64,000 nt of DNA from Neolewinella litorea (GTDB taxonomy: Bacteria; Bacteroidota; Bacteroidia; Chitinophagales; Saprospiraceae): assembly GCF_004803465.1 (NCBI RefSeq), contig NZ_SRSF01000002.1, forward strand, positions 62,001-126,000. The letters are read 5' to 3'. Positions 6,601 to 20,913 of this stretch are shown piece after piece. The translations under genes and the position numbers were made by a program. Under the pieces are notes generated by a model that was not told where the DNA came from, made no database searches, and was given only the letters and a program-made list of their open reading frames with translations. The number at the start of each line of letters is the position of its first letter. Within the stretch, counting starts at the first letter, position 1.

Positions 6601-6746
6601 ATCAGATTGTTTTTCTTCGGGTGTAAAGGTACGGTGGGCACGCTTAGTATGCCACTATCCGGTCTTACAACGTCGGGGGAGTACAAAAGATGATACGGTC
6701 ACCGCCGTTTCCGTGTTAAGGGCCTGCAAAAACTTCTACCAATTGT

Positions 6747-6778
6747 TTTGAAATGTAAAAGCAGGGCGCTTATCTTTG
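6747..6778 (+). promoter_or_regulatory. Bacteroidota-type promoter of tRNA-Ala
   Basis: A TTTG -33 element (6747-6750), a 20-base spacer and a perfect TAnnTTTG -7 element (TATCTTTG, 6771-6778) lie 18 bases before the tRNA. This matches the consensus for the Bacteroidota primary sigma factor. Confidence 0.65.
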
Positions 6779-6795
6779 CCACCGCTTAACCGCTA

Positions 6796-6872
<77 letters not shown>

Positions 6873-6874
6873 AC

Positions 6875-6906
6875 AACGCCTCCGACAGTCCGCTGTCGGG
6901 GGCGTT
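6875..6906 (+). terminator. Terminator of tRNA-Ala
   Basis: A 14-bp stem (AACGCCTCCGACAG with its complement, one G-U pair) over a 4-base loop starts four bases after the tRNA. It is followed by a weakly T-rich tail (CGTGTTTATT). Confidence 0.6.
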
Positions 6907-6911
6907 CGTGT

Positions 6912-7712
6912 TTATTCCCGAACCATATCCAGAGCGTAGGTCAGCGGAATTTTACCTTCGAGCCCCCGCAGCTGCCAGCGCTGCGCCCCCACCTGAACCG
7001 TATCCGGAAAGCAGTCGTAGGGTGAAAAGTCGTACTCCCTGAAGGCCCGTAATCTGAGCCCCTGGTCAAGGAGCGCCGTGATCACTTTACTGACCGGGTG
7101 GTCCCAGCTGACGTTTTTGCCCTTCACCCCCTCACTGCCGTCGGTATAGCTGCCCTCGGCCTCTTCCACAATAGGCACCCCGCCGAAGTAGGAATACTCC
7201 AGCCCCGTGCGCTCCTCGTTCCACAGCCAGGCCAGCGGGTGAAATTCCACGAACACGAACCGACCGCCCGGGCGCAGGTAGCGCGCGACTACCGCCGCCC
7301 ACCGGTCCATGTCGGGCAACCACCCTATAGTACCGTAGCTGGTAAAGACGTAGTCGAAACGTCCCGCTTCATCGAGGTGGTCCGGCAGGCTGTATAGATC
7401 GCAGTTGATGAACCGCGCCGTCAGTCCGGCGCGCGTTGCCAGATCACGAGCTGCTTCGATGGCCCGGTCGCTGAGGTCCACGCCCGTAACATCCGCGCCT
7501 CGGCGGGCCAGCGATAGGCTGTCCTGGCCGAAGTGGCATTGGAGGTGCAACAGCCTCTGGCCAGTGAGGTCATCGGGGAGCATTCCGGCTTCAATTTCCC
7601 GCAGGCTGTCCTGGCCGGCCAGCCAACCGGCTACGTCGTAAAACTTGCTTCCCAGGTGGGCCGGCGTACGGTCATTCCAGTGGGCCCGGTTGATGTCGAG
7701 GTAGTCGTCCAT
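6912..7712 (-). CDS. Class I SAM-dependent methyltransferase
   Basis: 266-residue cytoplasmic enzyme. The Rossmann-type SAM site is clear: motif I LLHLQCHFGQDSLSLAR with the acidic strand end VTGVDLSDRAIEAA, then FINCDLYSLP and FDYVFTSYGTIGWLPD, followed by the YLRPGGRFVFVEFHP strand. The N-terminus (DINRAHWNDRTPAHLGSKFY) is typical of a Bacteroidota subgroup of small-molecule methyltransferases. Substrate unknown. It is transcribed towards the tRNA and stands alone. Confidence 0.9.
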   Translation of the reverse strand: MDDYLDINRAHWNDRTPAHLGSKFYDVAGWLAGQDSLREIEAGMLPDDLTGQRLLHLQCHFGQDSLSLARRGADVTGVDLSDRAIEAARDLATRAGLTARFINCDLYSLPDHLDEAGRFDYVFTSYGTIGWLPDMDRWAAVVARYLRPGGRFVFVEFHPLAWLWNEERTGLEYSYFGGVPIVEEAEGSYTDGSEGVKGKNVSWDHPVSKVITALLDQGLRLRAFREYDFSPYDCFPDTVQVGAQRWQLRGLEGKIPLTYALDMVRE

Positions 7713-7857
7713 ACTACAAGTTTACAAAGCGGGCGCCGGAGCGCGGGTGCCAGGCCGGCGGCAATGCAATAGTATGTGGCTTTCTACCGGGAATGGCCGC
7801 GGTCTTCCCTTGTTGTTTCGTCGTACATTAAGGTGCCGAAAAAAGCTTTTCCTTCCT

Positions 7858-8928
7858 ATGCTGACCATAGTTCCCCGCCGCGCTTTTCTACAAACGGTTA
7901 CCACTTTATTGGCCGGGACCTGCCTGCCCGCCCAATCGCTATTGGCGGGCACGCGGGAAGCGGCGGAGGGTACGATCATGACGGTTGGTGGGCCGATCGC
8001 GCCGCAAGACCTTGGCTTTTGTCTGCCCCACGAACACGTACTGTCGCGCTTCGGAGCGCCACCAGAGGAGCCGGCCGATTTTGATTCCGAGACCGTACAG
8101 CGCGAGGTGGTGCCTTATCTCGAATACCTGCGGGAACTGGGCATCGGCGCGGTGGCCGACTGCACCGCCTACTCCTTCGGGCGGGCGCCGGAATTGCTGC
8201 GCCAGCTGTCCGATGCATCCGGCCTTCACCTGATCACGAACACCGGCTACTACGGAGCGGCGGATGATCGCTACGTGCCCGCGGAAGCCTACCAACTGGA
8301 GGCCGGGGAGATCGCCAGTCGCTGGATCGCGGAGTTCAACGCCGGCATCGGCGGCACCGGCATTCGCCCGGGCTTCGTCAAAACGGCCGTGGATGCGGGC
8401 CCCCTCTCCCCCATCGACGCCAAACTGGTACGCGCTGCTGCCCTGACGCACCGGGCAACCGGACTCAGCCTGGCCATCCACACCGGAGATAACCCCGGAG
8501 CCGCCCGGCAGCAGCTTGACATCCTGGCCGAAGAGGGCGTTTCACCGGAGGCCTGGACGTGGACGCACGCGCAGAACGTCTCTGACCCCGCCCCCCTGAT
8601 CGACGCCGCCGGCCGGGGTGCCTGGATTAGCCTGGATGGTGTGAATACCCCTTATTTCCAGGACGGGCGCCGGCAGGGAGGTGACACCCTCGACCGCCAC
8701 TTCCGTCACCTTATGGCGCTGCGGGGGGCGGGCCTACTTGACCGGGTATTGCTCAGTCACGACGGCAGCACTTACCCACCTGACCTTACTGCACGACGCC
8801 CCATGGACATCATCCCGAATACCTTTTTGCCCATGCTGCGCGCGGGCGGCCTGAGCGAGGCGGAGATCGAGCAGCTTACCGTGGGCAACCCCACCCGCTA
8901 CTTTACCGTGCAGCTGCGCCTGCAGTAA
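7858..8928 (+). CDS. Phosphotriesterase-family metal-dependent hydrolase, exported
   Basis: 356 residues from the ATG at 7858, which opens a Tat-like or twin-Arg signal (VPRRAFLQTVTTLLAGTCLP); earlier in-frame starts add an unlikely Arg/Cys-rich leader. It keeps the full binuclear-metal ligand set of the amidohydrolase-superfamily phosphotriesterases: H58 and H60 (PHEHV), carboxylated K175 (GFVKTAVD), H208 (AIHTGD), H237 (WTHAQN) and D302 (SHDGS), spaced as in characterised enzymes. Family members hydrolyse lactones, phosphotriesters or sugar-phosphate esters; lactonase activity is at least as likely as phosphotriesterase. Export with a Tat-type leader fits a metal centre loaded before secretion. 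Confidence 0.88.
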   Translation: MLTIVPRRAFLQTVTTLLAGTCLPAQSLLAGTREAAEGTIMTVGGPIAPQDLGFCLPHEHVLSRFGAPPEEPADFDSETVQREVVPYLEYLRELGIGAVADCTAYSFGRAPELLRQLSDASGLHLITNTGYYGAADDRYVPAEAYQLEAGEIASRWIAEFNAGIGGTGIRPGFVKTAVDAGPLSPIDAKLVRAAALTHRATGLSLAIHTGDNPGAARQQLDILAEEGVSPEAWTWTHAQNVSDPAPLIDAAGRGAWISLDGVNTPYFQDGRRQGGDTLDRHFRHLMALRGAGLLDRVLLSHDGSTYPPDLTARRPMDIIPNTFLPMLRAGGLSEAEIEQLTVGNPTRYFTVQLRLQ

Positions 8929-8993
8929 CGATCAGGCTCCTCAACCTGGCGGCGGCTGTCGTGTTACCATTTTCTATACCAAAATTACCCACC

Positions 8994-9629
8994 ATGCCAT
9001 TACGATTAGGAGACACCGCCCCCAACTTCGATGCCCAGACCACCGAAGGAGACATCAATTTTTACGATTGGGCCGGCGACCACTGGGTCGTGCTCTATAG
9101 CCACCCGAGCGATTATACGCCCGTCTGCACCACCGAACTGGGGCGCACCGCATCTTTGAAGGAAGACTTCGAGCAGCGCCACGCCAAGGTCATCGCCCTG
9201 AGCGTCGACGACCTGGAAAGCCACAAAGGCTGGGTGAAGGACATCGAAGACACGCAGAACGTGAAGATGAACTTCCCCATCATCGCCGACCACGACCGCA
9301 AAGTGGCCGAGGCCTACGACATGATCCACCCCCAGGCCGATGATAAGGCTACCGTGCGATCCGTATTCATCATTGACCCCAAGCGCAAGGTGCGCCTCAC
9401 GCTGACCTACCCGCCCTCCACCGGCCGAAACTTTCAGGAAATCCTGCGCGTACTCGACAGCCTGCAACTCACGGACAACTACAGCGTGGCCACGCCAGTC
9501 GACTGGAAAGACGGCGACGACGTAGTAGTCAGCCCCAGCATCGCTACCGAAGATATCCCCGACAAATTCCCGAAAGGACACAAGGAGATACGTCCGTACC
9601 TGCGTACCACTCCGCAACCCAATCGTTAA
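8994..9629 (+). CDS. 1-Cys peroxiredoxin (Prx6-type)
   Basis: 211 residues from the ATG at 8994 (MPLRLGDTAPNF); the GTG at 8961 would add eleven unconserved residues. Thiol peroxidase that reduces hydrogen peroxide and alkyl hydroperoxides. The peroxidatic motif SHPSDYTPVCTTELG places the catalytic cysteine at residue 45, and it is the only cysteine in the protein, so it is a true 1-Cys enzyme needing an external thiol. The long C-terminal domain after VRSVFIIDPKRKVR, with DWKDGDDVVVSPSI, is characteristic of the Prx6 group. Its 3' flank carries the TTAGT repeats. Confidence 0.95.
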   Translation: MPLRLGDTAPNFDAQTTEGDINFYDWAGDHWVVLYSHPSDYTPVCTTELGRTASLKEDFEQRHAKVIALSVDDLESHKGWVKDIEDTQNVKMNFPIIADHDRKVAEAYDMIHPQADDKATVRSVFIIDPKRKVRLTLTYPPSTGRNFQEILRVLDSLQLTDNYSVATPVDWKDGDDVVVSPSIATEDIPDKFPKGHKEIRPYLRTTPQPNR

Positions 9630-13059: not shown

Positions 13060-13192
13060 TGCCTAGCTTTCCCGGTAACGGGGGCGGCGGCGCGCGGGTG
13101 CCGGGCAATTCCGTACAGCCCATTGCGTCAGATCAATCCTGGCATTGACCTGAGTCATCGCCGGGGGGAATTCCGCAGCCCACTTTTGTGGC

Positions 13193-14017
13193 ATGCGACA
13201 CATCCTAGTACCCACCGACTTCAGCGCTTCCGCCGACAATGCGGTCGCCTACGCCCGCCTGCTGGCGTCCGAATTTTCGGCCCGCATCGCGCTGGCCCAC
13301 GTACACCCGATCCCCCAGGACCCGCTGCGCATCGGCGAGTGGAAGAAAGAATCCTACGAAGAGCAGGAGGCAATCCTTGAGCAGCACGCCGGGTGGCTGC
13401 GGTCGACCGGTCTGGACGTTGATGTGATCCTGCAATTTGGCAATGCCGTGAGCCGGTTGAAACGCATCGTCCACCGTGAGGCGATCGACCTGATCGTGAT
13501 GGGGTGCCAGGGCGAGCATTACCTGTCCGCCAAGTTCTTCGGCAGTACCACCACGGCCCTGATGGATGAGGTAAATACCCCCATCCTGGCCGTTCCCGTG
13601 GGGTTCGCGCCATCCTTTCCGCGCAACCCGATGTGGGCCACCGACCGCCGGCCCGTCCGCAGCACCAAAACGCTGGAGCCACTCTACCAACTCGTGGACC
13701 GGGCCACCACCGAATTGCGGGTCTTCCACTACCAGGAAGCCGGAGAGAATGCCCTGCCGGACGATCGTTTCAAAGAACTGCTGGCCGAGGTGCGCCACGA
13801 CTACTTCGTCCAACTGGCCGACGGCGACACCGTGGAAGGAGCCATCCGGAAATTCGTCCGCATGACGGGCGTCGACCTCATAACGGTATTGCACCGACAG
13901 TCCTCCTGGCTCAGCCGCCTGATCACCGGTTCTTACACCCGGAGTATCGTATGGCGTACTCCGGTTCCCGTCCTCATCTTGCAGGAAGTTCACAGTTTTT
14001 CAAGCGTCTCCAAATGA
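13193..14017 (+). CDS. Tandem-domain universal stress protein (UspA family), copy 1
   Basis: 274 residues, two Usp domains. Domain 1 starts MRHILVPTDFSASADNAVAY and holds the nucleotide-binding signature G-2x-G-9x-G-S in IVMGCQGEHYLSAKFFGSTT, so it probably binds ATP. Domain 2 (from about residue 150) is divergent and ends with TPVPVLIL, without a clear binding loop. Soluble cytoplasmic stress protein. The stop overlaps the ATG of the lipoprotein gene (ATGA), which makes it the first gene of a coupled operon that continues through the second Usp gene. Confidence 0.9.
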   Translation: MRHILVPTDFSASADNAVAYARLLASEFSARIALAHVHPIPQDPLRIGEWKKESYEEQEAILEQHAGWLRSTGLDVDVILQFGNAVSRLKRIVHREAIDLIVMGCQGEHYLSAKFFGSTTTALMDEVNTPILAVPVGFAPSFPRNPMWATDRRPVRSTKTLEPLYQLVDRATTELRVFHYQEAGENALPDDRFKELLAEVRHDYFVQLADGDTVEGAIRKFVRMTGVDLITVLHRQSSWLSRLITGSYTRSIVWRTPVPVLILQEVHSFSSVSK

Positions 14018-14766
14018 TGATTTCCCTTCGACTGTTCCTGATGGCCCTCCTGTGGCCGGCCGGCACCCTTTTTACGAGCTGCAGTGCCAACCGTTATCTC
14101 GATACCGATGAATTGGAGCGACAGCTCCTCATCGTTTGGATCGCTACCGAGACCGACGACCCCGCCACCGCGCTGACCGCAACTTCCGCCGCCTCTCGCC
14201 AGTGGTCCGCGCTCCGGACGACATATGCCGGGGAGGGCGTGACCCGCGCGGAGGAGGACATGCTGCGATTGACCGACCTCTGGATGGCAGGCCTGCGCAA
14301 TGCGGTGCGGGACGCCCCCCCACACCGGACCCTCATGCACCTGGAGCAACTTCAGGACCGGATCACCGGCCTGCGGCCACGCTACGGGACAGACCACCCC
14401 GTGGATTTGCTTTACGCCTTCTACAGACAGTGATTGTGGGTAAGTGAAGTCAGTAACGATCGGCTCCTGTGCCTGCTGGAATGGGGAGAATACGAAACAG
14501 CCTACCGCACGGCGCGAAAAAGCTGGGATCGCTTTCAATCTCTCCCTTCCTTTTACGCAGAAGAGATTCTCCGCGGACAAGTAAATCGAAGCACCGAAGC
14601 TGCCTTTGCCGCCCTTCGCCTGACACAGTCCCTGAATGATTTCGAACGGCTGCTGGATGGGGCGAACCAGGGTCCGATGGCGGCTGCCGCAGCTACCGTT
14701 CACGCCCGGTACTTCGGCTTTCTCAAGGTAGCGGCGGACTATCCCCCAGCGGTCGGGGCCCGATAA
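14014..14766 (+). pseudogene. Lipoprotein gene interrupted by an in-frame TGA
   Basis: The first segment (14014-14433, 139 residues) starts on an ATGA overlap with the upstream Usp gene and has a lipoprotein signal with lipobox Cys in GTLFTSCSANR. It ends at a TGA at 14431-14433, after LLYAFYRQ. The same frame then stays open for 110 more codons (14434-14766, beginning LWVSEVSNDRLLCLLEWGEY) with the same helical, Arg/Glu-rich character and ends 10 bases before the next gene. Uninterrupted it would be a protein of about 250 residues. A single TGG- or CGA-to-TGA change explains this; sequencing error and readthrough are alternatives. I do not recognise the family by name. Confidence 0.7.
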
Positions 14767-14776
14767 ATCCCGGAAT

Positions 14777-15646
14777 ATGAAACGCATTATTGTCCCCGTC
14801 GATTTTTCCCCCACCTCCGCCGCGGCCACCCGCTTCGGTACGCATCTGGCGGAAACCATGAAAATGGACCTCACCGTCCTACATGTCTACGATACCCGGC
14901 TGAGTACTTCCCAGACCATCTCGACCCGGGCCAAGGCTCGCGAGCAAGAACGGATGGAAGATCAACTGGACAAATTCACGCGGCGGAACGTAGAGCCGGT
15001 ACTGGCCACCTTCCAAGGAAGGCTGGACGTTTTGCCAGCCGTAAAATCCATGGCCCTGGAGGGGCGTGCAGCCCGCAAGATCCTGCGAATTTCCAAAGCA
15101 GCGGACGTTGGGTTGATCGTGATGGGGGGCGTAGGCGCCGGTGCCGGCCTACACCCCCCCGGCGCGTTCGGAAGCGTGGCCAGCCGGGTGGCCCTGCGGG
15201 GTGGGTGCCCCGTCATCCTGATCCCCAAAGACTACGGAGCCCCCCCCGTGGAGCGTCTGGCCCTTGCCTTCAATTCGGTGAATGACGTGCGGTATATGCG
15301 GGGCTTTACCCAAAAAATCGTTCGTGCGCTTCACCCGGAGGTCAGGTTCGTGCACGTCAACGCAGGATCCAAGGCGGGTACGCCTGAACAGCAGGAGGAA
15401 TTCCGTAAGCTGGCTGATGAACCCGGTTTCCCGAGCCGTACCTACCAGTTGGATTTCCTGGGACCTGGCCCGGTGGTCAAACAGTTGCTGACGTACACCG
15501 AGGAGGAAGAAATAGACCTGCTAATCCTGGGCGGGGAGCGCCGCGGCTTTCTGGAGCGACTACTCATTCCGGCGCACCTGCGCCCCCTCGTGCATCGCTG
15601 CACGGTACCCGTTCTTATCATCCCTTTTCAGTCGTATGCCCTATGA
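14777..15646 (+). CDS. Tandem-domain universal stress protein, copy 2
   Basis: 289 residues with two Usp domains. Domain 1 begins MKRIIVPVDFSPTSAAATRF; its binding loop VMGGVGAGAGLHPPGAFGS has two extra residues between the second glycine and the terminal GS, compared with the G-2x-G-9x-GS consensus. Domain 2 ends LLILGGERRGFLERLLIPAH with VPVLIIPF. The stop TGA (15644-15646) overlaps the ATG of the AhpD-like gene at 15643, showing translational coupling. It belongs to the same operon as copy 1 and the broken lipoprotein. Confidence 0.9.
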   Translation: MKRIIVPVDFSPTSAAATRFGTHLAETMKMDLTVLHVYDTRLSTSQTISTRAKAREQERMEDQLDKFTRRNVEPVLATFQGRLDVLPAVKSMALEGRAARKILRISKAADVGLIVMGGVGAGAGLHPPGAFGSVASRVALRGGCPVILIPKDYGAPPVERLALAFNSVNDVRYMRGFTQKIVRALHPEVRFVHVNAGSKAGTPEQQEEFRKLADEPGFPSRTYQLDFLGPGPVVKQLLTYTEEEEIDLLILGGERRGFLERLLIPAHLRPLVHRCTVPVLIIPFQSYAL

Positions 15647-15974
15647 AATATTACGTTTCCCGACACCAGGAACTCAGTGCCGACATGAGGCAGCTGGCAC
15701 GCGACATCCCGGACAGCATGCAAGCCTTTGGCCATTTGCACCGTGGCAGTCTGCAGGATGTGCTTTATCCAGGAAAATAAAGGAAATAAAGGCTTTGGCC
15801 ATCGCCGTGACCGTCCGCTGTGATGGTTGCATCGCATTCCACCTGCACGACGCCATTGCGGCGGGTGCGGACCGCGACGAAATCACTGAAGCCATCGGCG
15901 TGGCCGTGCTGATGGGGGGAGGCCCCTCCGTGGTGTACGGCTGTGAAGCCCTGAAGGCGCTCGGGCAATTGTGA
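15643..15974 (+). pseudogene. AhpD-like carboxymuconolactone decarboxylase family gene with a -1 frameshift
   Basis: The natural start is the ATG at 15643, overlapping the Usp stop. That frame reads MKYYVSRHQELSADMRQLAR and so on to LYPGK, then hits TAA at 15778-15780. The conserved remainder is in the -1 frame and runs to 15974: KIKEIKALAIAVTVRCDGC, with the redox CxxC (CDGC) and the HLHDAIAAGADRDEI proton-relay region, then AIGVAVLMGGGPSVVY. The join is at an AAAA run directly before TAA, so one missing A (AAAAA to AAAA) or slippage on AAA would restore a 110-residue AhpD-like thiol peroxidase partner. It could be a true frameshift mutation, a homopolymer sequencing error or recoding. Confidence 0.8.
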
Positions 15975-16003: not shown

Positions 16004-16921
16004 CTAACCCCGGGAGAACTGGTGTCCGGTCCGGGCACTGGACTCAATATTGGGCGCGGATGACTTGCCCACCCCAGCGGTAAGGATCAGCAGGGGCAGC
16101 CGTGCGCGCAATACAGCCTCCCGGGTAGCGCTCTTGTGTAACAGCCGCTGGAACCAGGGGCGATCGGGACGATGCATGACCACAAGGCCGCAGCGCTGCT
16201 CGAATGCGTAGGCGAATATCGCACCGATGGTATCACCCGCTATTCGCTCCGAGAAACGTGCCCGAAAATCATCCTCCGGACGGTCGAATACCTCCTGCAA
16301 TACCCTAAGATCGAAGTCCGTAACCTCACCCTCCCGCGTACGGACGTGCAGAAAGTGCACGTTGGAGCGGCTCACCCCAAGGGCCTTCAGCACAGTCCGC
16401 GCCTGAAATATGCCCGCGCTGTGCAGATCGGTGGCGAAACAGATGGAATCAAACGGTTTGAACTTCACCTTATCGGGAATGACCAGGACCGGACAGGGTG
16501 GCCGGCTCGCCACTGCGGAAGCATTGGTCCCCCACCAGTCGTCCACGGCCCACTGCCTTCCGGCTGTACCCATGATAATAAGTTGATTTCCTTCCCGCTC
16601 GACGTGCTGCCGCAGACAAAAACGCAGTTCCCCCACCCGGACGAAGGTGCGTACCCCCGGCATTCTGGCTACGGATCCCGCAGCGCCGGAGATGCCCCGT
16701 TGCGAGAATTCCACCAGTTCGGTACGTGCTTCTTTTTGGAGGGAAGCCGTGAGGTTGTCTACAAAAGTTCCATAGTTGGGATTAGACGGCGTTGGTGGAA
16801 TGACGTACAGCAAATCGATGCTAGCGTCGAGTTTTTCCGCCAGGTGCAAGGCGTAGTGATAGGCACCGTAGGCAAGGGGTGAAAAATCCGTGGGTACCAG
16901 AATGGATGAGATCTTTTCCAT
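16004..16921 (-). CDS. Tandem-domain universal stress protein, copy 3
   Basis: 305 residues, divergent in orientation from the other copies. Domain 1 starts MEKISSILVPTDFSPLAYGA and has a full nucleotide-binding signature G-2x-G-9x-G-T in IIMGTAGRQWAVDDWWGTNA. Domain 2 (from KFKPFDSICFATDL) lacks the glycine loop and ends PLLILTAG. The tail after that is polar and Ser-rich. It converges on the AhpD-like gene and is divergent from copy 4, with 145 bases between the two starts that probably carry both promoters. Confidence 0.9.
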   Translation of the reverse strand: MEKISSILVPTDFSPLAYGAYHYALHLAEKLDASIDLLYVIPPTPSNPNYGTFVDNLTASLQKEARTELVEFSQRGISGAAGSVARMPGVRTFVRVGELRFCLRQHVEREGNQLIIMGTAGRQWAVDDWWGTNASAVASRPPCPVLVIPDKVKFKPFDSICFATDLHSAGIFQARTVLKALGVSRSNVHFLHVRTREGEVTDFDLRVLQEVFDRPEDDFRARFSERIAGDTIGAIFAYAFEQRCGLVVMHRPDRPWFQRLLHKSATREAVLRARLPLLILTAGVGKSSAPNIESSARTGHQFSRG

Positions 16922-17066
16922 GGGAAGCAGAGGCTGTTGTGTGCTACAAAATTCACCCCCGCCCTACACGACCGCGGTGATACAAATCACTGTCGCCGAT
17001 GATGTCGGACATACCCCGCGGTTGCGGCTCACCGGAACTTTGAGACTCATCAATTCCCTACCTCCC

Positions 17067-17984
17067 ATGCCTGCCAGCATCCTGATCCCCGTAGACTATA
17101 CCGTGGCATCACACAACGCCTACCGATTCGGACTTCACCTCGCCGAGGAAATGGGCCTGAACGTAGTTTTGGCGCATTACTATAGCGGATCGATCGATCC
17201 CCGGATTCCCCTGCAGTTCACCGGCGACGGAACCATCCAGGGTAGCCACCTGGAACACCTCCGCCAGTTTGCTTATTCCACCTGCGCTTATGCCTCTCCG
17301 CCGCTGGTAGAACTCCCTTGCAGCGTGGAAGTCGCTTACGAGGCCGACGTGAGTTTCAGTCCTTCTGCGGCCATCATCAAACGGGCGCACCGGTCAGACA
17401 TCATTCTGGTGGTCATGGCGTCCCGCAGCTCGCCGCCCCTGCTTGGAAAATGGCTCGGCAGCACGTCCACGACCGTCAGCGAAGCCTGCACCCGACCCGT
17501 TTTTCTGGTACCGGAGGCGGCCAGTTTCCAGCCGTTCCGTGAGATCGTGGTGGCCAACAATTACAATACCGCCGATCCTTATCCCCTGTGGCAACTGGAG
17601 GGATTGGCCGATCTTTTCAAAGCCAAGGTGCACTTCACCCACGTGGATACCGCCAAGGGGATGGGCGCACCGCGCTTTCTGCCGTGGAAGTTGATGGAAG
17701 AACTGTTGGACCGCACCCCGGCGGCCAATTACCCCTTCGAAGCAGTAACGGTACGGGATAAGGATATTGCACGCGGCCTGATCGATTACGCCGACCAGGT
17801 AGCCGCGAACCTGATCGTCATCGTGAACCAAACACGCAGCCGTTGGCAAGCCCTCCTGCGCGCTACCCTGACCCAGGACCTGGCACTGCGTTCCCACCTT
17901 CCGGTGCTGGTGCTGCATACGGCCACTATCAGCCTGGCGCGCCAGGTCGTGGCCCAGGAATTCGCCGATGGGGAAGCCGGATAG
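17067..17984 (+). CDS. Tandem-domain universal stress protein, copy 4 (degenerate nucleotide site)
   Basis: 305 residues from the ATG at 17067 (MPASILIPVDYTVASHNAYR); a longer in-frame ORF from 16890 would overlap the divergent copy 3 and is rejected. The expected glycine-rich loop reads VVMASRSSPPLLGKWLGST, where the first glycines are replaced by Ala and Ser, so ATP binding is doubtful. Domain 2 starts FREIVVANNYNTADPY. It converges on the receiver-CRP regulator gene with a 21-base gap. Confidence 0.88.
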   Translation: MPASILIPVDYTVASHNAYRFGLHLAEEMGLNVVLAHYYSGSIDPRIPLQFTGDGTIQGSHLEHLRQFAYSTCAYASPPLVELPCSVEVAYEADVSFSPSAAIIKRAHRSDIILVVMASRSSPPLLGKWLGSTSTTVSEACTRPVFLVPEAASFQPFREIVVANNYNTADPYPLWQLEGLADLFKAKVHFTHVDTAKGMGAPRFLPWKLMEELLDRTPAANYPFEAVTVRDKDIARGLIDYADQVAANLIVIVNQTRSRWQALLRATLTQDLALRSHLPVLVLHTATISLARQVVAQEFADGEAG

Positions 17985-18005: not shown

Positions 18006-19055
18006 TCAAAGCAGCAGGTTGCGTAGTACCTCGGGTTTCAATATCCTGATTAGGCGACCGTCGGTTTCCACCAGGCTGTCCTGTTTGAAATCCGACAGGG
18101 CCCGGGTCACGCTCTCCTTCGTGGAGCCGACCATCTGCGCCAGTTCTTCCCGGGAGAGTGAAATGGTTTCCTGGTTGGGCCGGTCGTGCAGATCGCAGAG
18201 CACGAGCGCCGTGCGGCGGCGAACGCTGTCGTAAGCCTGGTGCACCAGCTGCTCCTGGTTCTGCATTACCCGGCCCGCAAGCAGGTGGATGATGGCTGAA
18301 GCAACCGATCGCTCCGTATTGAGCAGGGCCATCAACTGATCCGTGGGCAACAGCTGACAACCGGCCGGCTCGGCCGCCGCCCGGGCCGTATAATGATAGG
18401 GCGTTCGCTCCAGGACGCAGGATACCCCGAAGATGTCGCCCGGACCCAGTTCCGCCAGGATATAGTCGCGCCCGTATTCGTGGGTCCGGCGGAGATGGAT
18501 CCGACCCTTGTCGATTCGATACAGAAAACGAGGGTGTTCGCCCTCGCGCACTACCACGGCACCTGCCTCAATGGTGGTCCGCCGCCCCGAAGCGGCGAAA
18601 GCTTCTTCCAGCCGTGCCATGCCCCGTTCGGCACCCGCCAATTGCGCCGGGGCCACCGCATCCTTTCCGCGGAGGGCTGCCTTGCGGAGGCGGGTCTGGA
18701 TCACCCGGAGGAGTTCATCCTTATAGAACGGTTTGGTGATGTAATCATCGGCGCCCAGGTTCATGCCGTGCCGGACGTCTTCCGCCTCCGTACGCGCGGT
18801 GATGAAAACGAACGGAATGGCGGCGGTCCGCTCGTTGTCCGAAAGCAGGTTCAGCACCCCAAACCCATCCAATTCCGGCATCATCACGTCGCAAAGGATC
18901 AGGTCCGGCAGTTCCTCGATGGCGAGTTTGGCCCCTGCCAGTCCGTTGGGGGCCGTGGAAGTCCGGTAGCCGTACAGCTCGAGAATCTCGGCCAGGTTCT
19001 CCCGGACCGCGGCGTTGTCCTCGATGATCAGAATGGTGGTGTTGGGTTTTTCCAT
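18006..19055 (-). CDS. Response regulator: receiver fused to a CRP/FNR-type regulator
   Basis: 349 residues. N-terminal receiver domain (1-120): acidic pair E12-D13, phosphoacceptor D56 (LILCDVMMPELDG) and K108 (GADDYITKPF). A short linker leads to a cyclic-nucleotide-binding-like beta-roll (about 140-260; HPRFLYRIDKGRIHLRR, LGPGDIFGVSCVLERTPYHY) and a C-terminal Crp-type winged helix (ETISLSREELAQMVGSTKES, VTRALSDFKQDSLVE). It lacks an N-terminal FNR-type cysteine cluster. The histidine kinase gene ends 6 bases upstream, so the two form an operon and almost certainly a phosphorelay pair. Likely controls the nearby stress genes. Confidence 0.92.
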   Translation of the reverse strand: MEKPNTTILIIEDNAAVRENLAEILELYGYRTSTAPNGLAGAKLAIEELPDLILCDVMMPELDGFGVLNLLSDNERTAAIPFVFITARTEAEDVRHGMNLGADDYITKPFYKDELLRVIQTRLRKAALRGKDAVAPAQLAGAERGMARLEEAFAASGRRTTIEAGAVVVREGEHPRFLYRIDKGRIHLRRTHEYGRDYILAELGPGDIFGVSCVLERTPYHYTARAAAEPAGCQLLPTDQLMALLNTERSVASAIIHLLAGRVMQNQEQLVHQAYDSVRRRTALVLCDLHDRPNQETISLSREELAQMVGSTKESVTRALSDFKQDSLVETDGRLIRILKPEVLRNLLL

Positions 19056-19061
19056 CGGTGG

Positions 19062-20240
19062 TCAGTTATCCGTATTCGGCAGCCGTATACTAAAAGTGGT
19101 CCCCTCCCCCTCCCGGCTGGTATAGTTGAGACTGCCGCCCAGCAATTCAACGTACTGGGCCACGATATTCAGTCCCAGTCCGGTGCCCTTGATGTTCTCG
19201 ACGTTGCGGGCGCGGAAAAAGCGGTCGAAGAGGTGCACCTGATCCTCCAGGGGAATTCCGATACCGTGATCCTCTACCTCCAGCAGCAGTTCACCCTCGA
19301 GGAGCGAGGCACGTACATACAGGGGTGAATCGGGCGGTGAGTACTTGGCGGCGTTGGACAAGAGGTTGATTAAGATGCGGCGCAGCAACTTGGGATCCGT
19401 CGTGATTAGGGTATCCCCGTCCAGTCCGGTCACTTCTATCACCTGCCCTGGCTTCAGCTGCCCCTCGCTGGCTTCTATGGCGGTGGACAGCACCGAGTCC
19501 AGGTGCACCTTGCGTACCTCCGGCCGGATGACTCCCTGTTCCAGCTGGCTCAGGGAGAGGAAATCGTTGAGGATCTCCGTAAGCTGGCCTACTGCCTCCT
19601 TGATGCGGTTCAGGTGCCCTTGTCGTTTGGGTTGTTGCCCGGTGTCAGTGTACAGTTCGATCAGTTCGGCGGAGCTGAGCACAGTACTCAGCGGGGTCTT
19701 GAACTCGTGGCTGGCCAGGGTGAGGAACCGGCTTTTCAGCTCATTGAGTTCCCGTTCCTTGCCCAGGGCCCGTTGGAGCTCGGCCTCCCGCGCCCGCAGC
19801 GCGGCGGTGCGCTCGATCACCTTGCTTTCCAGGCTCCTGTTGAGATCGTCCACCCGCTTCTTGGCCAGGTGGAACTCGCTCAGATCGTGGAGGATTCCCG
19901 TGTAGACGGTACCCTCCGCCAGGGTGACCTCACTGACGGCCAAGCGGAGGGGGAATTCACGCCCGTCCTTGCAGCGACCCGTCACTTCGCGACCGATGCC
20001 GATGATGTGGGGAACGCGCGTGCGCTGGTAACGCTCCAGGTATTCGTCGTGGTGGGTGCGGTCGTGGGAAGACATCAGCATATTGACCTTCTGTCCCCGG
20101 AGTTCTTCCGCAGTATATCCGAATAGTTCACAGGCGGCCCGGTTCACGTTCTCCATTATGCCACGGTCGTTCATCGTGATGATACCGTCGGTGGCCATTT
20201 CAAAAAGGGCCTTGAGTCGCCGTCCATCATCCTGGCTCAT
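19062..20240 (-). CDS. PAS sensor histidine kinase, FixL-like with haem-ligand residues
   Basis: 392 residues, no membrane segment. PAS domain (5-120), coiled coil (about 122-168), HisKA with phosphoacceptor H178 (LTLASHEFKTPLS), then HATPase (NLLSNAAKYSP, DHGIGIP, GTGLGLNIV). The PAS core HHDEYLERYQRTRVPHIIGI closely matches Bradyrhizobium FixL as I remember it: H64, H78 and R84 fall at the spacing of FixL H200 (haem iron ligand), H214 and R220. This points to a haem-based oxygen sensor, though many PAS kinases share part of the motif without haem. Partner is the receiver-CRP protein encoded immediately downstream. Confidence 0.88.
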   Translation of the reverse strand: MSQDDGRRLKALFEMATDGIITMNDRGIMENVNRAACELFGYTAEELRGQKVNMLMSSHDRTHHDEYLERYQRTRVPHIIGIGREVTGRCKDGREFPLRLAVSEVTLAEGTVYTGILHDLSEFHLAKKRVDDLNRSLESKVIERTAALRAREAELQRALGKERELNELKSRFLTLASHEFKTPLSTVLSSAELIELYTDTGQQPKRQGHLNRIKEAVGQLTEILNDFLSLSQLEQGVIRPEVRKVHLDSVLSTAIEASEGQLKPGQVIEVTGLDGDTLITTDPKLLRRILINLLSNAAKYSPPDSPLYVRASLLEGELLLEVEDHGIGIPLEDQVHLFDRFFRARNVENIKGTGLGLNIVAQYVELLGGSLNYTSREGEGTTFSIRLPNTDN

Positions 20241-20368: not shown

Positions 20369-20626
20369 TCACGCTACTTTATCGCCCTCGACGGCATTGG
20401 CGGAGGAAAGCTCCACCACCTTTCCGGAGGAGGTTACCTGGCGTATCGGGATAACCTTCCGGGGTGCAGGTGTACGAAAGCGAATGCCCAAGATAGCGCT
20501 GAGGAAGATGGGAAGCGAAAGCAAGGCGAAGGAGGTCCAGCCACTAAACAGCGCGATAAGGACAATGGCCATCATAAGGTAAAAGCGGTATACGATCTGG
20601 TCGACCGTGATAGCGTAAAAGCGCAT
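20369..20626 (-). CDS. Small two-helix membrane protein, unknown function
   Basis: 85 residues from the ATG at 20626 (MRFYAITVDQIVYRFYLMMA). Two adjacent hydrophobic stretches (FYLMMAIVLIALFSGWTSFA and LLSLPIFLSAILGI) form a helical hairpin; the C-terminus is a soluble basic then acidic tail. An earlier in-frame GTG/ATG would add 25 residues of unlike character. I recognise no family, but the context (upstream of the FixL-like kinase, 128 bases away, same strand) suggests membership of the stress/redox island. Confidence 0.65.
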   Translation of the reverse strand: MRFYAITVDQIVYRFYLMMAIVLIALFSGWTSFALLSLPIFLSAILGIRFRTPAPRKVIPIRQVTSSGKVVELSSANAVEGDKVA

Positions 20627-20913
20627 GACAGGTGAGTTTGTTGCCCCACAAAGTTGCCGGTGGGCGGCCTGTGGGAGATTGATCCGTATCATCGACCACA
20701 TTGATATATCTTACCCGGGGAAGTGCCTCGCTCGTATCCGCTTTGGCCCCGCCCTCCCGTTATCCAGCTGGCGCCGGCGCGCGGGTCCAGTGTGATAACC
20801 ACGAATGCTGGCCAGGTCGGCACCCGCCCCAGCACCTGCGCACCGCCGCCCAGTGAACAAAGGCTCCTAGCAAAACTTCGTACACCGGAACAGAAACCAA
20901 AAACCAAGCCAGT

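Follow-up and report, generated by a model that had tools for sequence, protein, structure and literature searches.

What oxygen signal, if any, does a bacterium read when it pairs a FixL-like histidine kinase with a regulator that carries a receiver and a CRP/FNR-type DNA-binding protein in one chain, and which genes would such a pair control? The question is raised by two adjacent genes of Neolewinella litorea, a member of the Saprospiraceae, within a stretch of 64,000 nucleotides (hereafter the window; NCBI RefSeq assembly GCF_004803465.1, contig NZ_SRSF01000002.1, positions 62,001 to 126,000). An earlier note on this DNA had likened the kinase to rhizobial FixL, proposed that the regulator merges the FixJ and FixK steps, and named neighbouring universal stress protein (USP) and AhpD-like genes as possible targets. 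Here we argue that the pair is probably an oxygen-responsive two-component switch, in which a haem oxygen sensor would phosphorylate a regulator that binds FNR/FixK-type boxes (anaeroboxes) directly—we place the probability of this reading at roughly 70%.

A FixL-like PAS domain in the kinase

The residues that drew attention to the locus—H64, H78 and R84 in the kinase and D56 in the regulator—are present in the sequences, and coordinates and Pfam domains confirm that a receiver–CRP/FNR fusion follows the kinase after a gap of 6 bases (Table 1). The PAS domain begins at residue 8, which leaves no membrane segment ahead of it; the kinase core consists of HisKA and HATPase_c domains, with a phosphorylatable histidine, H178, that is invariant in 28 of 28 kinases. 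When the PAS domain was searched against the PDB with phmmer, the best match was FixL, with E 3e-26 (95 bits) for the Bradyrhizobium japonicum protein and E 1e-19 for that of S. meliloti; DosP came second (E 6e-11, 46 bits), and the multi-sensor kinase 10jx (E 8e-10, 42 bits) and the entries 3mfx and 2r78 (23 bits) were compared by score alone. With a profile built from 28 kinases, FixL scores 143 bits and DosP 78 bits; among the best 60 of 124 chains, matches led by the PAS domain are all FixL or DosP, and every other chain is matched best through the kinase part.

The alignment with B. japonicum FixL is ungapped. In it H64 faces the His of RHDSY, H78 the His of PHIIGIG and R84 the Arg of GR; the three are 14 and 6 residues apart, which fits H200, H214 and R220 as the earlier note had stated, and the H200 position is held by a histidine. 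According to PMC10765370, the proximal histidine of FixL is His194 in S. meliloti and His200 in B. japonicum, oxygen is contacted by Arg214 or Arg220, the haem propionates are contacted by Arg200/Arg206 and His214, and the distal pocket of the S. meliloti protein includes Ile209, Ile210, Leu230 and Val232. The kinase offers a counterpart for each of these roles: H64 as proximal histidine, R84 as distal arginine, R70 as propionate arginine, H78, and a set of distal residues (I79, I80, L100 and V102) identical to that of S. meliloti FixL. The F-alpha histidine is the primary haem-binding determinant in the FixL/DosP PAS cluster, where 60% of members have it, as stated in PMC10468136.

Taken at the level of sequence, these comparisons support the assignment of the kinase PAS domain as a FixL-type haem PAS, which had been the starting claim. 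The kinase scores 140.3 bits against the NCBIfam equivalog sens_FixL_Rhizob (NF041777), under its cut-off of 850. In the structure model of the kinase (mean predicted local distance difference test, pLDDT, of 78) the matches are mostly to kinase cores over residues 159-392; the PAS fold is hardly probed in this way, and that FixL is missing from a list filled with kinase cores excludes nothing.

Conservation was read in an alignment of 64 kinases (the window and 63 Saprospiria relatives), three of which lack the PAS region, leaving 61. H64, Y67 and R84 are each kept in all 61, and I79 and I80 in 60. As a background sample, eight related genomes gave 107 PAS matches, of which 30 were readable: 7 kinases of the pair and 23 other PAS domains. 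Histidine fills the F-alpha column in 7/7 kinases beside a receiver–CRP gene versus 4/23 of the others, and His and Arg occur together in 4/7 versus 1/23; in the window's own genome, none of eight other PAS domains has His in that column. The match at H64 and R84 is therefore better than chance, since both residues are kept in every readable kinase and are rare among other PAS domains. The sole PAS domain outside the pairs that has both belongs to a FixL-type kinase, L212. It lies about 17 kb from a receiver–CRP gene of the same related genome, L194, which is without an adjacent kinase; L212 may be the displaced partner of this orphan regulator.

A receiver fused to a CRP-type protein

In the regulator, the receiver spans residues 8-119 and shares its chain with a cNMP-type beta-roll and a Crp-type helix-turn-helix (HTH). 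Six receiver residues (E12, D13, D56, T86, Y105 and K108) are invariant in 72/72 regulators, and the recognition helix, KESVTR, is kept as KESV.R in 69 to 71 of the 71 readable fusions, depending on the position. The cAMP-binding glutamate is never found: position 211, which we take to be the counterpart of CRP E72 following the conserved beta-roll glycine, is Y, V, I, T, L or F in 72 of 72. The [4Fe-4S] cysteine set of FNR is likewise absent from the window's regulator, whose cysteines stand only at 55, 213, 233 and 287, and the one cysteine conserved across the 72-row alignment, C55, is within the receiver. With no cAMP glutamate and no conserved cysteine outside the receiver, cAMP or an FNR-type cluster is unlikely to serve as the switch.

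The proposal that FixJ and FixK are merged here is not supported in its literal wording. The best models for the receiver are of the CseB, PhoB and MtrA types; the LuxR/NarL-type HTH of FixJ is not present, the output being cNMP_binding and HTH_Crp_2. The beta-roll and Crp-type HTH of the FixK/FNR-CRP family are there, and its stand-alone architecture without a receiver is not. The protein has the look of a separate fusion event, not of a FixJ attached to a FixK. Its model (pLDDT 87) matches CRP-family structures over about 200 columns, the best being 4ev0 at E 4e-18, and among the best 60 of 323 PDB sequence matches none covers the receiver together with the CRP part.

Distribution and genomic setting of the pair

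One scan of GTDB contigs yielded 71 fusions (L021-L091, of which L089 is cut by a contig end); L092-L099, where the matches cover the receiver only, were left out. The 71 come from Saprospiraceae, Lewinella, Phaeodactylibacter, Chitinophagales and other Bacteroidota, with one labelled only 'bacterium'. In 63/71 of these Saprospiria loci a kinase on the same strand lies no more than 600 bases upstream; of the eight exceptions, two begin close to the end of a contig and another has its kinase on the opposite strand. At L047 the kinase and the regulator are divergent (6674-7894 and 7989-9041).

Nor is the arrangement peculiar to the window's genome—in a draw from the phylum the fused regulator was found in 38 of 247 genomes and 29 of 121 genera (E up to 1e-50, own genome included). 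Twenty loci from this draw were read, and 19 are counted here as further loci, L190 being a repeat of L036. A PAS kinase is adjacent in 18 of the 19, and all 18 of these kinases have the F-alpha histidine. The pairing first seen in a single window is thus a conserved unit.

The genes around the pair recur as well. USP genes are near it in 54/71 loci and CBS-domain genes in 29/71. At least one of five cbb3 gene clusters lies within about 8 kb in 14/71 loci, L035 having a ccoNO fusion, ccoP, ccoG, FixH and a DsbD_2 protein, and cbb3 matches accompany the pair in 6/19 further loci, in several families.

An FNR/FixK-type box upstream of candidate targets

A palindrome search upstream of the neighbouring genes in Saprospiria passed six patterns, four of which can be read as TGA-N6-TCA: ATGAT and ATGAC with a spacer of 4, AATGA and GGTGA with a spacer of 6. 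The core, TGAY-N4-RTCA, has what we take to be the spacing of FNR and FixK sites, which are of the TTGAT-N4-ATCAA type. For counting, relatives at least 85% alike were removed, which left 43 of the 72 rows including the window (42 relatives), and upstream regions shorter than 300 bases were left out. In the 42 relatives the box occurs upstream of 39/65 USP, 19/36 kinase, 6/23 CBS and 0/1 hsp20 genes—64/125 for the four groups pooled—and of 3/4 ccoN genes, versus 27/277 other neighbours. Controls for the pooled count were low: spacers of 0-3 and 5-12 give 0 to 13, and 100 shuffles give at most 7; the permuted arm YGAT, itself overlapping with the motif, reaches 34/125, and other permuted arms at most 9.

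The further loci agree, with a box in 23/47 core upstreams (at most 3 for other spacers) and before 9/19 kinase genes; 19 of the 23 boxes begin 44 to 107 bases before the start of the open reading frame (ORF). No five-letter palindrome sought de novo in these loci reached five hits. The CRP-type pattern TGTGA-N6-TCACA and the six-base arm spacing were tried and are not enriched. Within the window, three cores fall in the pair/USP cluster, at 13146, 16978 and 20680, and 0 of 5000 shuffles place a box in all three regions. The box is thus enriched upstream of likely targets of the regulator, and we infer that the regulator binds it. The USP and AhpD-like genes singled out by the earlier note may be among these targets, a conserved anaerobox-like motif standing before both the USP/AhpD operon and the divergent USP genes.

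Gene neighbourhood in the window

The coordinates of the pair, its neighbours and the three boxes are collected in Table 1. A small gene upstream of the kinase is probably the first of a unit of small gene, kinase and regulator, which would form an operon. Its product has no match in Pfam or NCBIfam, and relatives directly 5' of the kinase occur in 7/71 loci, of the Neolewinella type. Relatives of the AhpD-like gene are near the pair in 2/71 loci. In the genome as a whole (4.4 Mb, 98.78% complete) USP matches fall in eight genes, four of them no more than 5 kb from the pair. Between the first two plus-strand USP genes, a gene at 14005-14769 contains an in-frame TGA (14431-14433) at a position that is Trp in a Neolewinella marina relative (locus L033), which points either to recent loss of the gene's function or to an error in the sequence. 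This gene has no Pfam match, and its relatives are near the pair in 11/71 loci.

Table 1. Features of the kinase–regulator locus and its surroundings, in window positions
Feature	Position	Strand	Length	Remarks
Sensor histidine kinase	19062..20240	-	392 aa	Pfam PAS, HisKA, HATPase_c
Response regulator, receiver + CRP/FNR-type	18006..19055	-	349 aa	Pfam Response_reg, cNMP_binding, HTH_Crp_2
Small protein	20369..20626	-	85 aa	From ATG at 20626; hydrophobic by eye
Universal stress protein	13193..14017	+		Two Usp stretches; first gene of probable operon 13193-15974; candidate target
Universal stress protein	14777..15646	+		Within probable operon 13193-15974; without own box
AhpD-like (CMD) protein	15636..15974	+		Last gene of probable operon 13193-15974
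Universal stress protein	16004..16921	-		Candidate target
Universal stress protein	17067..17984	+		Likely start 17067, listed ORF from 16890; candidate target
FNR/FixK-type box TGATCCGTATCA	20680..20691	.		53 bases before ATG of small gene; candidate autoregulation site of kinase operon
FNR/FixK-type box TGATACAAATCA	16978..16989	.		Between divergent USP genes; distances to the two ATGs 56 and 77 bases
FNR/FixK-type box TGACCTGAGTCA	13146..13157	.		35 bases before ATG of first USP gene

A proposed mechanism

In the switch that we propose, the kinase PAS domain would bind haem b through H64, and oxygen on the distal side, held by R84, would inhibit the kinase; the sign of this effect is taken from FixL. 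As oxygen falls, H178 would be autophosphorylated and the phosphoryl group would pass to the regulator's D56. This modification of the receiver, standing in for the cAMP of CRP or the iron-sulfur cluster of FNR, would then turn the CRP-fold dimer into a DNA-binding form. The regulator would activate genes with a TGAY-N4-RTCA box. In the window these would be its own operon, the USP/AhpD operon and both divergent USP genes; in relatives they would probably be USP, CBS, Hsp20 and cbb3-oxidase genes. Activation, rather than repression, is assumed from FixK and from the distances of the boxes.

Alternative explanations

Several observations weigh against this switch, and we consider them together with the explanations that compete with it. 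The most resilient competitor, which we still regard as unlikely, is that a different CRP/FNR protein of the cell occupies the boxes and that the fusion controls other sites. Other proteins of this type in the own genome could bind the box: three more open frames, of 204-238 amino acids, match PF00027, a Crp-type HTH being confirmed in one, and TGAY-N4-RTCA presumably fits FNR-type helices generally. The motif evidence also has its weak points. The box was found, and the four gene groups were chosen, on the same Saprospiria data, so that only the further loci are independent, and in these other neighbours carry it in 31/140 upstreams (at most 6 for other spacers). The window holds five exact cores where 2.5 are expected, a count that 10 of 100 shuffles reach and that is not significant; its three box-bearing regions were picked with the sites already in view; and no box falls in the 128 bases that immediately precede the kinase. 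Genome-wide, a longer form of the box occurs 50 times versus 24 for the reversed pattern, a modest excess, and of the 48 sites that fall outside the window 34 lie far within long ORFs and 14 do not, so that the genome-wide regulon could not be fixed. Three other USP genes were read in the own genome, one with boxes and two without; at the L178 USP gene the boxes are 54 to 87 bases before the ATG.

What speaks for the fusion as the binder is that boxes precede the kinase genes of the pair in both sets of loci, that they are rarer before other neighbours in both, and that the KESV.R helix is so consistently kept. Inverted repeats, which the earlier note had proposed to look for, are found at three promoter regions as TGAY-N4-RTCA, and across the genome the excess is modest. 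A further palindromic box, TTGACGATTGTCAA, lies at position 1501 of L130 in the own genome, 92 bases before a DUF420 gene and about 4 kb from a COX1-type frame; it may be another target or chance.

A shade less probable is that the kinase answers to something other than oxygen: its haem PAS may sense nitric oxide, carbon monoxide or redox state, or the domain may bind another ligand, with the FixL-like residues as a family relic. The pocket is not uniform, and this must be weighed. The three-residue signature proposed at the outset is firm at H64 and R84, and position 78 varies (H in 18 of the 61 kinases, K in 22, R in 18, Q in 2, S in 1); we dropped the three-residue match as a diagnostic whole for this reason. 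The propionate contact varies too, R70 being kept in 40/61. Three of the 23 PAS domains outside the pairs have the F-alpha histidine without the distal arginine, and the histidine is unconserved in 40% of the FixL/DosP cluster as PMC10468136 reports it. In distant homologues the distal pocket differs: among the 18 kinases of the further loci, I79 is found in 6 and R84 in 12, and 12 belong to a different PAS subtype, most ending FP.EV.L (L191, L193, L195-L197, L199, L201, L202, L204 and L207-L209). This subtype has the same receiver–CRP partner, a distal pocket unlike that of FixL and a retained F-alpha histidine; it may answer to another signal or differ in the chemistry on the distal side of a putative haem. 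Set against an alternative signal are the close kinases, which keep H64, R84 and the hydrophobic distal residues together, as well as the recurrence of cbb3 genes near the pair and a box with FNR spacing.

That an ordinary stress two-component pair, with no role in oxygen, stands beside USP genes by chance is very improbable: the window's genome was searched for cbb3 and bd oxidases and neither was found, but the association of pair and USP genes in so many loci, the box they share and the return of cbb3 in several families all argue otherwise. The missing oxidases do count against an oxygen switch, since the classical FixK target is absent from this genome; an oxygen-related setting, in the form of cbb3 genes, is seen in part of the relatives. 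Its sole match to cbb3 subunit I, a 627-aa frame elsewhere, is weak (37-42 bits), and cbb3 was rejected as a target in this genome.

Relation to known systems

Alphaproteobacterial cascades have a separate FixJ or FxkR and a separate FixK, according to PMC4999443. With FixL-FixJ-FixK (and hFixL-FxkR-FixKf) the pair shares the residues of the haem-PAS pocket, a PAS-HisKA-HATPase kinase, a CRP/FNR-type protein that lacks Fe-S cysteines and makes the last contact with DNA, and, in some relatives, cbb3 genes close by. It differs in having two proteins instead of three, with the receiver joined to the CRP-type protein and no second transcription step; in its PhoB-like receiver and lack of a LuxR-type output domain; and in its USP, CBS and Hsp20 neighbours, in an own genome without cbb3. 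Functionally the pair would take the place of this three-protein relay. Because the output domain is not that of FixJ and the receiver is PhoB-like, we do not regard the pair as a member of this system.

The CRP fold and, presumably, the TGAY-N4-RTCA spacing are shared with FNR/CRP of E. coli, from which the regulator differs in lacking the Fe-S cysteine set and the cAMP glutamate; an N-terminal receiver should switch it instead. The mycobacterial DosS/DosT-DosR system also joins haem-sensor kinases to a regulon rich in universal stress proteins; unlike the pair, it has GAF-domain haem sensors and a NarL-type regulator. NmpRSTU of Myxococcus xanthus resembles the pair in haem-based oxygen signalling and in a regulon of USP and cbb3-oxidase genes, and a CBS-domain protein is discussed alongside it; in PMC11841059 it is described with a globin sensor, a multi-step phosphorelay and an NtrC-like regulator. 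It differs from the pair in having neither a FixL PAS nor a CRP domain. A FixL-type kinase with a receiver–CRP partner, or the box in Bacteroidota, is not described in the literature searched, which is weak evidence of absence because most subscription papers were outside the search.

Implications

We give slightly better than even odds to a wider reading, in which the pair represents an undescribed, Bacteroidota-wide class: a haem-PAS kinase with a receiver–CRP regulator reading anaeroboxes, and a core regulon of USP, CBS and Hsp20 genes, with cbb3 where present. This reading takes in an F-alpha histidine kept across two PAS subtypes, and phosphorylation in place of the cAMP or Fe-S switch. 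If it is true, many Bacteroidota would own a general switch for low oxygen, akin to FixLJ-FixK or FNR, with a regulon predictable from a simple box. Such a pair would also show that a CRP fold can be switched by an attached receiver in place of a second messenger or iron-sulfur cluster, and the USP clusters of this group would have a testable explanation.

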